NCBI RefSeq assembly: GCF_006439395.2
Contig: NZ_CP083950.1
Coordinates: 992,001 to 1,056,000 of the forward strand
Length of the DNA: 64,000 nucleotides
Origin: Mesorhizobium sp. B4-1-4
GTDB lineage: Bacteria > Pseudomonadota > Alphaproteobacteria > Rhizobiales > Rhizobiaceae
Direction: 5' to 3'
Positions within the stretch are counted from its first letter, which is position 1. Every line of letters starts with the position of its first letter. Shown piece after piece: positions 1 to 31,174 of this stretch. Under the pieces are notes generated by a model. That model saw nothing but the letters and a program-made list of their open reading frames with translations, did not search any database and was not told the origin of the DNA. The translations under genes were made by a program, and so were the position numbers.

Positions 1-315
1 CTAGGTCTTTACTATCGCGAGTATGATCGTCTGATGCGGCATTGGACAAAGGTTCTTCCGGGTCGCATCTTTGAAAATCGCTATGAGACGTTGATTGAAA
101 ACCAAGAGGAGCAGTCGCGTCGTCTCATAGATTATCTTGGCTTGCCATGGGACAACGCCTGCCTGCGCTTCTTTGATAGGGACAGCTCGGTAAATACCTA
201 CAGCCGCTGGCAGGTTCGCCAGCCGATATACAAGTCCTCCATCAAGCGATGGAAGAATTACGAAAGCGAGATTCAGCCGTTGATCGACGCTTTGGGAGAT
301 TTGGCTGAGGTTTAA
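1..315 (+). CDS. Sulfotransferase family protein, C-terminal fragment
   Basis: The reading frame is open from base 1, so only the last 104 residues of a longer gene are present. The text LPGRIFENRYETLIENQEEQ followed by LIDYLGLPW resembles the C-terminal part of bacterial sulfotransferase-family proteins, often fused to TPR repeats, which move sulfate from PAPS to an acceptor. The RQPIYKSSIKRWKNYE stretch fits the 3'-phosphate-binding and C-terminal helix region of that family. The PAPS loop and catalytic residues lie outside the window, so substrate and integrity cannot be judged. It borders a decayed insertion sequence, which suggests accessory DNA. Confidence 0.7.
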   Translation, partial: LGLYYREYDRLMRHWTKVLPGRIFENRYETLIENQEEQSRRLIDYLGLPWDNACLRFFDRDSSVNTYSRWQVRQPIYKSSIKRWKNYESEIQPLIDALGDLAEV

Positions 316-26641: not shown

Positions 26642-26801
26642 TGGGGGAAATTCAATCCAGCCGGAATAAACCGGCACCCGCCAGCGTTATCTCATTGCTT
26701 GGGTGACCGGGGCGGCGGACCGCTTCGCGCTGGCCGCTTGCGCCACGCCGGGAAGGCGCGTTCAATCGAGATCAATAAGGGCGAGCTCAGAACCAGCGGT
26801 C

Positions 26802-27320
26802 ATGGACGAAAAGAAGGCAGCAATCCTTGGCGAAATACCGCGCCTGCGCCGCTATGCACGCTCGCTTTTGCGCGACCGCGATGCCGCCGACGATCTCGTT
26901 CAGGACTGCCTCGAGCGGGCATTGGTGCGGCTCGACAACTGGCAGACAGGAGAAAGCCCCAGGAGGTGGCTGTTTACGATCATGCATCATTTGTTCATCG
27001 ACCAGATGCGCAAGGTGAACCGCCGCGGCGAAGCGGCGATGCTGCCGCTGGAGGCGGGCGAGACGGTAGCCCAACCGGCCGAGCAATTGGACGGCATCGC
27101 CTCACGCGAGATCATCGACGCATTGCAGGCGATCAGCCCCGATCGCCGCGCGGCCCTTGTCATGGTTGCAATTGAAGGCTTCTCCTACGCCGAAGCCGCC
27201 AACATTCTGGGCGTGCCCGCCGGTACGCTGATGTCACGTATTGCGCGCGGGCGCGAGGAACTGCGTGGGTTGCTGGACGACACGGCGCGCCGCCGCGCGA
27301 TAAGGATCGTCGAGAAATGA
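26802..27320 (+). CDS. ECF-type RNA polymerase sigma factor
   Basis: A 172-residue sigma-70 family member with only regions 2 and 4. Region 2 is ARSLLRDRDAADDLVQDCLE and WLFTIMHHLFIDQMRK; region 4 is ISPDRRAALVMVAIEGFSYA followed by a helix-turn-helix (AANILGVPAGTLMSRIARGR). Its target promoters are unknown. The ATG at 26802 starts directly before region 2; an upstream extension has no homology. The stop overlaps the start of the membrane protein that follows, the classic layout of a sigma with its anti-sigma factor. Confidence 0.9.
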   Translation: MDEKKAAILGEIPRLRRYARSLLRDRDAADDLVQDCLERALVRLDNWQTGESPRRWLFTIMHHLFIDQMRKVNRRGEAAMLPLEAGETVAQPAEQLDGIASREIIDALQAISPDRRAALVMVAIEGFSYAEAANILGVPAGTLMSRIARGREELRGLLDDTARRRAIRIVEK

Positions 27321-28108
27321 TCCGCCGCGATTTTTCCGAACGTGACATCCACATGGCGCTCGACGGCGAACTGCCAGCCGATGAGCGTGTCACCTATGAA
27401 GCCTGGCTCGAGGCCAATCCCGAGATGAAGGCCAGGAGCGCCCGCTTCACCGCCGACCGGGAGGCATTGCGCGCCGCCCTTGCCGGCGTGCTGGATGAAG
27501 CCGTGCCAGTGCGATTGCGCAAGGTCGTGCTCGGCGAAACGCCGGTCAAGGCAGAGGTGCCACGTTCACGCTGGTGGCTTGGCGCGGCCGCGGCCGTGCT
27601 TCTGGCTGCGGGTGGATTTGGCGGCTACGTCGCCGGCATTGGCGGCATCGGGCAGGAGGATCAGGCGGAAGACCGGCTCGCCGAACAGGCGATTGCCGCC
27701 CACGTCATCTACGCGGCCGAGAAGCGGCACGCGGTGGAAGTGCCGGCCAGCGACAAGGATCATTTGCAGACCTGGCTGTCAAACCGGGTCGGCCTGAAGC
27801 TGGTGGCACCGGACCTGACCGCGAACGGTTTTCAACTGATCGGCGGCCGGCTGCTGCCGGCCGGCGAAAGCAAGGCCGCGATGCTGCTCTACGAGGACGA
27901 CAAGGGAGAGCGCATATCCCTCTTCGTGACGGCGGAATCGGCGGAAAATGCCACGGGCACCTATGCTTCGGCGCAGGCGGGTCCGCAGGCCATCTACTGG
28001 CTGGACAAGGGCTATGGCTGCGCCGTCGTTGGCTCGCTGCCGCGTGACCAATTGGCAGTGGTGGCAAAGAGCGCTTATGGCCAGCTTCTGGCAGGTCTCA
28101 CAAGCTGA
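27317..28108 (+). CDS. Membrane-anchored anti-sigma factor
   Basis: A 263-residue protein with an N-terminal cytoplasmic helical domain (RRDFSERDIHMALDGELP, typical of anti-sigma domains), one transmembrane segment about 85-107, and a periplasmic C-terminal domain of about 155 residues. I see no HxxxCxxC zinc motif, so it is not a ZAS-type redox sensor. It presumably holds the overlapping ECF sigma factor at the membrane until an envelope signal acts on the periplasmic part. The signal is not evident from the sequence. Confidence 0.85.
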   Translation: MIRRDFSERDIHMALDGELPADERVTYEAWLEANPEMKARSARFTADREALRAALAGVLDEAVPVRLRKVVLGETPVKAEVPRSRWWLGAAAAVLLAAGGFGGYVAGIGGIGQEDQAEDRLAEQAIAAHVIYAAEKRHAVEVPASDKDHLQTWLSNRVGLKLVAPDLTANGFQLIGGRLLPAGESKAAMLLYEDDKGERISLFVTAESAENATGTYASAQAGPQAIYWLDKGYGCAVVGSLPRDQLAVVAKSAYGQLLAGLTS

Positions 28109-28316
28109 GTTGGCGGCTATTTTCGCAGCCGGCGGAGCCTCGAGACAGCGATCCTGTTCAAAGCCAGGCCGCTTCCATGCCGTCGAGGAAACTGTCACAA
28201 TTCGGCCCTAATCAGGGAGCGATAGCGCTTCATGAATACCGGCGCTTCGGCCGGTGTTTGCGACGCCTTTGACCGGGGCCGGTTCCGCAACCCAATCGAG
28301 GGTTTCTCAAAGTCGC

Positions 28317-29423
28317 ATGCCTGCCGATATCCGCACGGCCCGCGCGTCTGACGTCGATGATCTCGCCGCCATCGAGAAAGCCGTTTTCTCGAGCGATCGC
28401 ATTTCGCGACGCTCTTTTCGTCTGTTCATCGAGCGTGAGACCGCCGAGACTCTGGTCGCCGAAGTCGACGGCCGCGTCGCCGGCTATGCGATCGTGCTGT
28501 TTCGCAAGGGCAGTGGCGTGGCGCGGCTCTATTCCATAGCTGTCGGCCCGTTTTTCGGCGCGCTCGGCATCGGGCGCCAGCTGTTGTCGTCGGCGGAGGA
28601 GGCGGCCTTCGAGCACGATCGTATGATGCTGCGTCTCGAAGTGCGCGAGGATAACGGCCGTGCCATCCGCATCTACGAGCTTGCCGGCTACCGCAAGATT
28701 GGCCGGGAACCTGGCTACTACGAGGACGGCGCCACCGCGCTTCGCTATGAAAAGACCTTGCGCGGCGACCTTGCGGTCGCCACCCGGGTGCCATTCTACC
28801 AACAGACCTGCGAATTCACCTGCGGCCCCTGTTGCCTGATGATGGCCATGGCCAATTTCGACCGCGGTTTCGTGCCCGATCCGGTGATGGAAATCCGCCT
28901 CTGGCGCGAGGCGACGACTGTCTTCATGATGTCTGGGCCGGGCGGCTGCGAACCGTTCGGCCTGGCTGTCTCGGGGTACGAAAGCGGGCTCGCCGCGGAA
29001 ATCTTCGTTTCCTTCTACGGCGCGCTGTTCCTGCAGTCGGTGCGCAGCGAGGAAAAGCGCCGGGTAATGGAACTGGCGCAGGTCGACTTTCGCCGCCGCG
29101 CGGAACTTTACGGCATCCCGGTGAATTACCGCTCGTTCACCATCGATGACATCAGAACCGCGATCGCCGCGGGAAAGCTGGTGCTGGTGCTGATCAGCGG
29201 CTTCCTGATGTTCGGCAAGAAGGTGCCGCACTGGGTGCTGGCCATCGGCGATGACGGCGATCATATTCTCATCCACGATCCCTGGGTCGAGGACGAAAGG
29301 CAGGAAACCATCCTTGATGCCGCCAACATTCCCGTGCCCTACGGCATCTTCATGAACATGGCGCAGTTCGGCCGCGACGGACTGCGCGCCGCCATCACTC
29401 TGGGGAAGCGCGACACACAATGA
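28317..29423 (+). CDS. GNAT acetyltransferase fused to C39/papain-like peptidase
   Basis: A 368-residue two-domain protein. Residues 4-148 form a RimI-like GNAT domain with the acetyl-CoA loop VGPFFGALGIGRQLL (76-90) and NGRAIRIYELAGYRKIGR. Residues 155-360 are a cysteine-peptidase-like domain: QQTCEFTCGPCC with likely nucleophile Cys169, His305 in VPHWVLAIG and Asp321 in IHDPW. The pair of domains in one chain next to a RLAN/ATP-grasp ligase is a recurrent combination described for RimK-like amidoligase systems. Its stop overlaps the ligase start (ATGA). The start is uncertain: ATG at 28317 fits the domain, while a GTG 21 codons upstream is open. The substrate is unknown. Confidence 0.82.
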   Translation: MPADIRTARASDVDDLAAIEKAVFSSDRISRRSFRLFIERETAETLVAEVDGRVAGYAIVLFRKGSGVARLYSIAVGPFFGALGIGRQLLSSAEEAAFEHDRMMLRLEVREDNGRAIRIYELAGYRKIGREPGYYEDGATALRYEKTLRGDLAVATRVPFYQQTCEFTCGPCCLMMAMANFDRGFVPDPVMEIRLWREATTVFMMSGPGGCEPFGLAVSGYESGLAAEIFVSFYGALFLQSVRSEEKRRVMELAQVDFRRRAELYGIPVNYRSFTIDDIRTAIAAGKLVLVLISGFLMFGKKVPHWVLAIGDDGDHILIHDPWVEDERQETILDAANIPVPYGIFMNMAQFGRDGLRAAITLGKRDTQ

Positions 29424-30883
29424 CCTGGGTCATCCTTACCGGCAGGCAGAGCGACCTCGACCAGGTGGCGACACCGCACAAGATCATCACCAACCGCGAC
29501 TATCTTGCACATCCGGCGCTGTTCCGGGGCCAGCGGCCGAAGGTCATCAACCTGTCGAACAACTACGGCTACCAGAGCCGCGGCTATTATGCCTCGCTGC
29601 TGGCGAGCTCGCGGGGTCACAAGGTCATCCCGACCGTCGAGACGATGATCGACCTGTCGGAGCGCAAGCTCTATGAGCATGCGCTGCCGGAACTGGAGCT
29701 GGCGCTCAACAAATGCCGCAAGGATCTCGGCGGTGCCTTTCCGGCGAAGGTGTGCATCTTCTTCGGCATCGGACCCTCCAAGGTGTGGGACCGTTTCGCC
29801 AAGCTGTTGTTCGACTGGTTCAGGGCGCCGGCGCTCGAAGTCCATATCAAGGACAGCGCCGAATGGGCCTCGATCCGCAAGATCGGCTTCCATCCGCTGG
29901 CGCGGATGACCGAGGAGGAAGAGGCGCACTTCATCCAGTGCCTGGAGACCTACACCAACCGCGAGTGGCGCGACACCAAGGGCCGCACACCGGCGCGCTA
30001 CACCTTCGCCACGCTGGTCGATCCGCATGAGGAATTGCCCCCGTCGGAAATCTCGTCTCTGCGCTACTGGGCCAAGATAGCCGAGAAGATGGGGGTCGAA
30101 ATCGAGCCCATCACCAGGAAGGATCTCGCCAAGCTCGCGAATTATGACGCGCTGTTCATCCGCGAGACCACCTCGATCTCCAACCATACCTATCGTTTCG
30201 CCCGACGCGCCCAGCAGGAAGGCATGCCGGTCATCGATGATCCGCTGTCGATGATCCGCTGCACCAACAAGGTCTACCTCAACGAGTTGATGTCCTACAA
30301 CAAGGTGCCGGTGCCGCCGACGGTGATGATCGCCGGCGCTTCGGATCTCGAGCTTGCGGCGCAGACGTTGGGGTTCCCGCTGGTGCTGAAGATCCCGGAT
30401 TCGTCCTTCTCGCGTGGCGTCAAGAAATGCGCCAGCTTCGAGGAGCTGAAGACGCTTGCAACCGAATGGCTGGAGGATTCCGACCTCCTCATCGCGCAGA
30501 AATTCATCCCGACCGAATATGACTGGCGCGTTGGCGTGCTCGGCGGTCAGCCATTGTTTGCCGTGCACTATCTGATGGCCAAGAAGCACTGGCAGATCGT
30601 CAACCACAAGGCCAATGGCAAGCCGGACCAGGGCGGCATCAAGACCTTCACGCTGAAGGAGACGCCGGCCCATGTCGTCGAGACGGCGGTGAAGGCAGCG
30701 CGCTGCATCGGCGACGGCCTCTACGGCGTCGACCTCAAGGAGACCAAGGACGGCGTCTTCGTCATCGAGGTCAACGACAATCCCAACCTCGACCATGGCT
30801 GGGAGGATTCGGGCGAGAAGGACGAGGTCTGGGTCCGGCTGACGCAATGGTTCCTGGAGCGGCTCGATCGGCCGGGACGATAG
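29420..30883 (+). CDS. RimK-type ATP-grasp ligase with N-terminal RLAN-like domain
   Basis: A 487-residue protein. The first 200 residues match what I know of the RLAN domain, an uncharacterised alpha/beta module found in front of RimK-like ATP-grasps (GYQSRGYYASLLASSRGHKV; PALEVHIKDSAEWASIRKIG). The C-terminal half is an ATP-grasp: PLVLKIPDSSFSRGVKK, LLIAQKFIPTEYDWRVGVLG, and the metal site GVDLKE / VFVIEVNDNPNLDHG. ATP-grasp ligases of this type activate a carboxylate as acyl phosphate and join it to an amine, for example adding amino acids to a peptide. It overlaps the acetyltransferase/peptidase gene and is followed 18 bases later by a DUF3303-like gene. Confidence 0.85.
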   Translation: MTWVILTGRQSDLDQVATPHKIITNRDYLAHPALFRGQRPKVINLSNNYGYQSRGYYASLLASSRGHKVIPTVETMIDLSERKLYEHALPELELALNKCRKDLGGAFPAKVCIFFGIGPSKVWDRFAKLLFDWFRAPALEVHIKDSAEWASIRKIGFHPLARMTEEEEAHFIQCLETYTNREWRDTKGRTPARYTFATLVDPHEELPPSEISSLRYWAKIAEKMGVEIEPITRKDLAKLANYDALFIRETTSISNHTYRFARRAQQEGMPVIDDPLSMIRCTNKVYLNELMSYNKVPVPPTVMIAGASDLELAAQTLGFPLVLKIPDSSFSRGVKKCASFEELKTLATEWLEDSDLLIAQKFIPTEYDWRVGVLGGQPLFAVHYLMAKKHWQIVNHKANGKPDQGGIKTFTLKETPAHVVETAVKAARCIGDGLYGVDLKETKDGVFVIEVNDNPNLDHGWEDSGEKDEVWVRLTQWFLERLDRPGR

Positions 30884-30901
30884 TTCACCGGGGGGGGGAA
30901 C

Positions 30902-31174
30902 ATGCAGTTCATCGTGATCGAGGATTTCACCGGTCGCGACCGCAGGGACATCTACCGTCGCTTCCGCGACCGGGGCCGTCTGAAGCCGGAGGAGCTTGTC
31001 GTGCACCACAGCTGGATCGCCGCGGATATGAGCCGCTGCTTCCTGCTGGTGGAGCCCGACGACGTCACGCTGCTGCAGCGCTGGGTCATCGAATGGGCGG
31101 ACCTCGTCGAGTTCGAGATCGTCCCGGTGGCCACCAGCAAGGACATGGTGGCGGCGCTGAGCGGGCACCTTTGA
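30902..31174 (+). CDS. DUF3303-like small protein
   Basis: A 90-residue ferredoxin-fold-like protein starting MQFIVIEDFTGRDRRDIYRR and containing HHSWIAADMSRCFLLVEP and WADLVEFEIVPV, text I associate with DUF3303, whose function is unknown. A G-run (GGGGGGGGAA) before the ATG acts as ribosome-binding site. Only 18 bases separate it from the ATP-grasp gene, so it is probably in the same operon; whether it takes part in the same pathway is not known. Confidence 0.78.
   Translation: MQFIVIEDFTGRDRRDIYRRFRDRGRLKPEELVVHHSWIAADMSRCFLLVEPDDVTLLQRWVIEWADLVEFEIVPVATSKDMVAALSGHL

Follow-up and report, generated by a model that had tools for sequence, protein, structure and literature searches.

Neighborhoods in which a RimK-like ATP-grasp ligase carrying an RLAN domain is encoded together with a fusion of a GNAT acetyltransferase and a papain-like peptidase were reportedly predicted by Iyer, Abhiman, Burroughs and Aravind in 2009. 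Here we analyze a locus of this already predicted kind in a 64,000-nt stretch of DNA from Mesorhizobium sp. B4-1-4, hereinafter the window (assembly GCF_006439395.2, contig NZ_CP083950.1, positions 992,001 to 1,056,000, forward strand). In the window, gene 1 encodes the acetyltransferase-peptidase fusion and gene 2 the ligase, and both hallmarks of the predicted neighborhood are present, namely, RLAN on a RimK-like ATP-grasp and an adjacent GNAT-papain protein with Cys, His and Asp. The locus is real and conserved, and has kept its active sites. To this kind of locus, the present survey adds that the GNAT is the near-constant partner of the ligase, to which it is naturally fused in some loci, that the peptidase is facultative and hardly occurs without RLAN, that RLAN is itself likely a degenerate pseudo-ATP-grasp, and that the third gene in line, encoding a DUF3303 protein, is a local feature to be removed from the system.

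Parts of this design recur in other described systems. N-acetylglutaminylglutamine (NAGGN) synthetase couples two glutamines, one of which it acetylates (PMC8070244). This enzyme combines GNAT and ATP-grasp in one chain, following the same recipe and domain order as the single-chain GNAT-RLAN-ATP-grasp proteins described below, and its locus (TIGR03103, TIGR03104 and TIGR03106) also includes an M42 peptidase; however, the NAGGN ATP-grasp is nearest to cyanophycin synthetase, unlike the ligase of the window, which has the RLAN region in addition. Gene 1 is not a NAGGN synthetase by its score against TIGR03103 (20.0 bits vs. a cut-off of 569), no TIGR03103 match at E ≤ 1e-50 was found in the window genome, and there is no amidotransferase among the scanned window neighbors. 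Pairing of a RimK-fold ATP-grasp with a peptidase is seen in RimK and RimB (S6 glutamate ligase and retropepsin) and in the rlo operon; PMC12239564 describes RimB as a glutamate-removing protease and the rlo operon as a pair of ATP-grasp and protease. Here, in contrast, the peptidase is of the cysteine rather than the aspartic type, the partner is nearly always a GNAT, RLAN is present, and none of the 5 scanned window neighbors is a retropepsin or an inactive transglutaminase. The best reading is that the locus may use the recipe of the NAGGN synthetase with a ligase of a different family. Specifically, we propose, with a probability of roughly 0.45, that the ligase-acetyltransferase pair makes an N-acetylated small peptide or amide and that the C39-type domain serves in its processing or turnover.

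Pairing of the RLAN ligase with an acetyltransferase

RLAN was found in 71 (about 18%) of 398 evenly drawn Pseudomonadota genomes. We compared 156 RLAN loci, comprising 61 of the 74 matches in this phylum sample (window included), the best 80 of at least 584 named loci and 15 of the 40 matches in a sample of the order, which together represent 153 distinct sequences, many of them from near relatives. In 153 of the 156 loci, a GNAT belonging to one family is encoded no more than 300 bp from RLAN, and 155 have it at a distance of up to 1.5 kb, an association beyond chance that identifies ligase and acetyltransferase as the core of the system. The GNAT is encoded upstream on the same strand in 115 loci, divergently in 29 and downstream on the same strand in 7, is fused to the ligase in 4 and is missing in 1; given this variation in orientation, the link has been preserved through rearrangement. 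Counted by distinct sequences, the neighbor is present in 152 of 153, and among representatives at 70% identity, in 66 of 67. Within the genus of genome G058, all 30 RLAN loci read (of 32 matches; 6 already included in the 156) have the GNAT. The sole exception comes from genome G193, in which a different contig encodes a GNAT-C39 protein belonging to this family. One locus at a contig edge, with a partial GNAT, was counted as GNAT-bearing. Two loci from metagenome-assembled genomes labeled Acidobacteriota (L156 and L167) resemble Hyphomonadaceae and are probably misbinned; they were kept in the counts.

In 4 loci, GNAT, RLAN and ATP-grasp form a single chain, as confirmed with Pfam for two of them (L048 and L189), and the acetyltransferase and the ATP-grasp may act as one unit, similar to the NAGGN synthetase in gene arrangement but with another type of ligase. 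Thus, the association of ligase, acetyltransferase and peptidase proposed in the first-pass annotation of this DNA is real and conserved, but its near-constant element is the GNAT, the peptidase being missing in 15 of the 71 RLAN genomes. For a fosmid of an Antarctic Pseudomonas, consecutive accessions are listed for a GNAT and a protein named "RimK family protein", which the relevant passage leaves without comment (PMC9756463).

All domains named in the annotation score above the Pfam gathering cut-offs: GNAT (PF00583, 55.8 bits) and DUF3335, "Peptidase_C39 like" (PF11814, 252.9 bits), in gene 1; RLAN (PF14401, 130.3 bits) and RimK (PF08443, 38.5 bits) in gene 2; and DUF3303 (PF11746, 92.6 bits). 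The active-site residues are conserved as well. Among 28 aligned fusions, Gln163, Cys169 and His305 of the peptidase are identical and position 321 holds Asp (25 fusions) or Glu (3), bearing out the proposed C39/papain-like site (Cys169, His305, Asp321) with this slight latitude at the last position; in the GNAT domain of the same proteins, Glu108 shows no variation, and Tyr (26 proteins) or Phe (2) occupies position 120, the two positions being the counterpart of the RimI catalytic pair. In the ligase, K284, K324, Q360, D368, R370, D438, K440, E450 and N452 are invariant in 30 of 30 sequences; the metal site had been described as intact. Given this conservation, the acetyltransferase, the peptidase and the ligase should all be active. 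The GNAT domain has Ard1 (4pv6) and RimI (9mto) as structural relatives in the PDB; RimI and Ard1 acetylate alpha-amino groups. Its score against the RimI profile TIGR01575 (76.3 bits) is below the cut-off of 86.4, which does not qualify it as the S18 acetyltransferase.

The domain identities, conserved active sites, GNAT-ligase pairing, fusions and confinement of DUF3335 reported here are drawn from sequences and their comparison. The layout of the three genes, with a 4-base overlap (ATGA) between genes 1 and 2 and an 18-base gap before the DUF3303 gene, is as first described and corresponds to mechanically called open reading frames (ORFs) (Table 1). A longer alternative GTG start of gene 1 exists at 28254; the start at 28317 agrees with most relatives from the same genus (ORFs of 365-368 aa). 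Among the matches listed, the nearest named relatives are from Mesorhizobium, with 98% identity. The window genome has 1 RLAN, 1 DUF3335 and 3 DUF3303 matches, and the ratio of nonsynonymous to synonymous substitution (dN/dS) of 0.02-0.20 indicates purifying selection on all 3 genes (compared with 8 loci; with 6 for DUF3303, the gene being absent in the other 2).

Table 1. Features of the locus, in window positions
Feature	Position	Strand	Details and basis
35-bp conserved block, GTCACAATTC.GCC...GCGATAGCGC, candidate promoter or operator	28194..28228	+	alignment of 19 upstream regions
Gene 1, fusion of GNAT acetyltransferase and DUF3335/C39-like cysteine peptidase	28317..29423	+	368 aa; Pfam, residue alignment
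Gene 1, GNAT domain, nearest to the peptide N-terminal acetyltransferases RimI and Ard1	28317..28766	+	TIGR01575; PDB 4pv6 and 9mto
Gene 1, DUF3335 papain-like domain (Gln163, Cys169, His305, Asp321)	28788..29402	+	PF11814, 252.9 bits
Gene 2, RLAN and RimK/LysX-type ATP-grasp ligase	29420..30883	+	487 aa; Pfam, NCBIfam, structure search
Gene 2, RLAN region, residues 1-184, predicted degenerate ATP-grasp	29420..29971	+	model with predicted local distance difference test (pLDDT) of 92.4
Gene 2, catalytic pre-ATP-grasp and ATP-grasp region, residues 190-487	29987..30880	+	Foldseek, 30-sequence alignment
DUF3303 gene, next in line, judged outside the system	30902..31174	+	90 aa; PF11746

The ligase family and the RLAN region

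ATP-grasp ligases join a carboxylate to an amino group via an acyl phosphate, and ATP-dependent amide-bond formation is predicted for gene 2. The ligase is nearest to LysX, ArgX and RimK: its best NCBIfam profile is LysX_arch (87.8 bits), and a Foldseek search with the whole chain matches Ddl, ArgX, LysX and RimK. Its scores of 83.9 bits against rimK_fam (cut-off, 143.4) and 24.8 bits against PRK10446 (cut-off, 331) do not make it a RimK. Closeness to LysX and ArgX in both profile and fold, including an HW pair that aligns with Thermus LysX and the presence of both enzymes among the top structural matches, raises the possibility of carrier chemistry, in which an amino acid would be joined to a LysW-like protein as in the synthesis of lysine and arginine. 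However, the profile score is far below the LysX cut-off of 275.6 bits, the H390-W391-Q392 stretch and H396 are specific to the family (30 of 30 ligases), and a search covering LysW-like carriers only gave no match in the window genome, although the LysW profile matches 4 of 14 control genomes. The LysW carrier was rejected because of this missing match, and we regard chemistry of this kind as the least credible of the explanations considered.

The RLAN region was modeled alone from 30 sequences, with a predicted template modeling score (pTM) of 0.87 (pLDDT in Table 1); in the whole-chain model (pLDDT 88.3, pTM 0.60), its structural elements are nearly unchanged. By VIA-align, the model is matched to ArgX (3vpc_C, chain range 1..282) over 168 of its 184 residues with a Z score of 11.3 and a root mean square deviation (rmsd) of 4.1, and all 50 matches listed are ATP-grasp-fold proteins, among which we count inositol phosphate kinases and synapsins on the assumption that they share this fold. 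The best Foldseek matches of the model are ArgX, LysX and PsnB, with a lowest E value of 2e-4 and four matches at E ≤ 0.001. Because profile-profile comparison of RLAN with ATP-grasp by hhalign shows no duplication (probability 0.2), the fold assignment rests on structure prediction. In the model, the overall ATP-grasp fold appears to be present, from the pre-ATP-grasp domain to the C-terminal hairpin and helix. RLAN probably is a degenerate second ATP-grasp, since it matches RimK, LysX and ArgX ligases end to end and yet is much shorter; it looks about 100 residues shorter than an ATP-grasp enzyme, and the order of the elements suggests that the missing stretch would lie mid-domain. As placed on the model, the invariant residues (N44, G55, Y56, Y57, S59, L60, A62, R65, P71, F115 and P137) are mostly in the pre-ATP-grasp part and none is in the predicted C-terminal hairpin, presumably the place where the metal ligands would sit.

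The optional peptidase and other neighbors

DUF3335 is optional and nearly confined to genomes with RLAN: it is found in 57 of the 398 genomes, 56 of which have RLAN (Fisher p = 5e-53, shared ancestry ignored), the only other one being G008, which has DUF3335 alone (L179). Such rarity without the ligase is expected of an enzyme acting on the product of the ligase. Within genomes G193 and G006, DUF3335 is present but away from RLAN. In a tree of 123 GNAT domains, the presence of DUF3335 requires 6 changes vs. 39.8 in shuffles, with the reservation that the alignment is short, 42 of 119 forks are open, 34 loci were left out and near-copies favor clustering. A review that cites Iyer et al. 2009 describes frequent fusion of DUF3335 to GNAT domains, with a possible activity of these GNAT domains in peptide ligation or acetylation (PMC10318531). 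Besides the usual RLAN locus, two genomes of the window's genus encode additional DUF3335 proteins that are unlinked to RLAN and have a weak or no GNAT match (L175, 4933-5994 and 13989-15197; L176, 9245-10339); those of L175 flank genes that, by eye, resemble a LysR-like regulator and a peptide ABC transporter. Among 14 control genomes, none matched RLAN, and that of Methanosarcina acetivorans matched both DUF3303 and DUF3335.

Joint presence of GNAT and peptidase in 97 of the 153 distinct loci would also suit a system that handles toxic or foreign peptides or amino acids, the GNAT acetylating them, the C39 domain hydrolyzing them and the ligase conjugating them for storage or export, and the GNAT gives weak matches to streptothricin (24.9 bits) and arsinothricin (21.7 bits) acetyltransferase models. 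Against such a role, which we consider decidedly improbable, stand the strong purifying selection in Mesorhizobium, the lack of any PADLOC match at E 0.1, and the lack of a resistance or efflux family among the identified recurring neighbors, with no search aimed at such families. A defense system was rejected on the same PADLOC result.

The DUF3303 gene, which the first-pass annotation considered a possible additional component, is probably outside the system. In searches with one sequence, it is linked to RLAN in 6 of 61 phylum-sample loci (window included) and in 11 of the best 80 of at least 584 named loci, all from Mesorhizobium or close relatives. Among 199 genomes of the order searched with the Pfam model, DUF3303 occurs in 31, RLAN in 40 and both in 6, a chance-level co-occurrence (Fisher p = 1.0), and the two are adjacent in 4, all from the window's genus. 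Given the local linkage and the absence of co-occurrence, we reject this gene as part of the system and regard it as a passenger or as something added locally. The annotation had also named the findings that would undo it: failure to recover RLAN or the peptidase by profile did not occur, and lack of linkage in other genomes was seen for the DUF3303 gene only.

A different neighbor of the pair is DUF2817 (PF10994, function unknown in Pfam), which we take to be related to M14 zinc carboxypeptidases. In 14 of the 71 RLAN genomes, its gene is no more than 3 kb from the RLAN domain; 13 of these genomes belong to a single family, in which DUF2817 is present in all 13 RLAN genomes vs. 1 of the 37 RLAN-lacking genomes examined. 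Outside this family, a strong match is found in 25 of 71 RLAN and 4 of 71 RLAN-lacking genomes (p = 2e-5), a comparison that was not used because the RLAN-lacking set was hand-picked and has fewer complete genomes (52 of 71 vs. 69 of 71). Neighbors were clustered for 121 loci, with 35 close relatives left out. The DUF2817 ORFs form a cluster of 6 loci at a median of 61 bp from RLAN, which, among the 40 widest clusters, part of them identified, is the one relevant-looking cluster that lies near RLAN across two or more lineages. Wider clusters consist of reverse-strand ORFs (judged by eye), generic ABC ATPases (14 loci) and chemotaxis receptors (10 loci), these two being the largest outer clusters, as well as AMP-binding enzymes and local synteny. 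The window genome encodes DUF2817 twice, both copies unlinked.

The pair might instead modify a ribosomal precursor in the manner of graspetides, with the C39 domain cutting the leader and the GNAT capping the N terminus. Graspetide-type ligases, PsnB for example, are among the enzymes that RLAN resembles, and C39 peptidases of other systems cut leaders (PMC10318531). However, no small ORF spans lineages: among 1781 ORFs of 20-90 aa around RLAN in these 121 loci, the widest cluster, confined to one lineage, comprises 9 loci and the second widest 5, a search that covered linked ORFs with a limited set of start codons. This agrees with the earlier remark that no precursor peptide is visible. Furthermore, GNAT-only loci lack a C39 domain beside RLAN, and we consider precursor modification very unlikely.

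The core of the 35-bp block preceding gene 1 recurs ahead of the first gene in 24 further loci, from Mesorhizobium and some relatives. In its exact form, the core occurs once in the 6.27-Mb window genome and is thus not a motif common to many genes; readings of the block as a Pho box or a site for an extracytoplasmic function (ECF) sigma factor were considered and dropped. An ECF sigma factor and an anti-sigma-like gene are located directly upstream of the operon (26703-28108), and related ECF genes are found in 7 of 61 loci, all from the window's genus or family. In locus L063 (9547-10878), a sigma-54 activator with a VpsR-like domain is encoded directly downstream of RLAN, and its relatives are near RLAN in L072 and L083. 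DUF155 (RMND1-like) genes occur near RLAN or GNAT-C39 in L055, L057, L069, L081, L089 and L178, with a Pfam check in L057 and L178. From gene order, we take PA1345 of Pseudomonas aeruginosa to be the RLAN gene, and we put no weight on a link to CpxR. According to PMC12802237, the CpxR site predicted there by motif was missed by DNA affinity purification sequencing (DAP-seq).

The proposed acetylated product

The reactions, the order of the steps, the small-molecule product and the roles of RLAN and the peptidase are what we infer for the pair as follows. The RimK/LysX-type ATP-grasp would phosphorylate a carboxylate with ATP and couple it to an amino group on a partner molecule, which is probably an amino acid; RLAN may help hold the substrate without a catalytic role; the RimI-like GNAT would acetylate the alpha-amino group of either the first residue or the finished peptide; and the fused C39-type domain, where present, might cleave or trim the product, in turnover or maturation. 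The near-constant pairing with GNAT, the single-chain fusions, the near-confinement of DUF3335 and the presence of DUF2817 beside RLAN all point in this direction.

Several observations weigh against synthesis of an acetylated small molecule. LysX acts on protein C termini. RimK does so according to PMC12239564, and modification of a protein would, because of these two precedents, fit as well. Substrate and product are putative assignments from gene comparison; the ORF clusters of the 121 loci show neither a transporter nor a substrate-making enzyme as a recurrent direct neighbor of the pair in different lineages; and sampling is phylogenetically clustered, so that the p values overstate independence. 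The Foldseek superposition of RLAN is loose (for the best match, rmsd 9.5 and template modeling score 0.60 by query and 0.42 by target). An RLAN-ATP-grasp on a P. aeruginosa plasmid (L195; NZ_CP133752.1, 1-10067) has no GNAT within 7 kb; its immediate neighbor is an Orn/Lys/Arg decarboxylase-like gene, and the annotations in the vicinity include a glutamate/aspartate transporter and a gamma-glutamyltransferase. Finally, RLAN is neither associated with NAGGN synthetase nor excludes it (RLAN in 9 of its 36 genomes, p = 0.25), and on this basis, replacement of NAGGN synthesis and partnership with it were both rejected. In a single case (L178; genome G006, contig 1, 236500-256000; 1296-12309), the unlinked GNAT-C39 gene stands behind the complete NAGGN trio of TIGR03104, TIGR03103 and TIGR03106 and in front of adjoining DUF2817 and DUF155 genes; given the lack of association between RLAN and NAGGN synthetase, it was not used as support.

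The main rival is reversible tagging of a protein, in which the ligase would add one or more residues to a protein C terminus as RimK does on S6, the GNAT would acetylate that protein or a different one, and the C39 or DUF2817 enzyme would remove the tag. The closest enzymes include RimK and RimI, which act in S6 glutamylation and S18 acetylation, RimK and the rlo ligase have proteases as partners, and an optional peptidase next to a ligase that is not optional might suit a pair of eraser and writer. Yet the ligase falls far short of the RimK models in score, the surroundings of the pair revealed no target protein, and tagging leaves unexplained why the near-constant partner is a GNAT, even fused to the ligase; overall, we consider tagging unlikely, if less so than the other alternatives.

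The synthesis of an N-acetylated peptide or amide by ligase and GNAT thus remains our preferred reading. In the open-licence full-text literature, the scope of our search, we found no study of what a system with RLAN/ATP-grasp, DUF3335, DUF3303 or DUF2817 does. The survey points to the ligase and the GNAT, with DUF3303 left out, as the parts to test, and the natural single-chain fusions and peptidase-free lineages provide material for expression and comparison. More tentatively, RLAN could turn the ligase into a tandem ATP-grasp with a dead first copy, which, together with the GNAT, might represent a second, independent class of N-acetyl-peptide synthetases making a widespread acetylated peptide so far unseen, with DUF3335 and, in one lineage, DUF2817 as dedicated hydrolases. 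If true, a common bacterial metabolite would be missing from the record.

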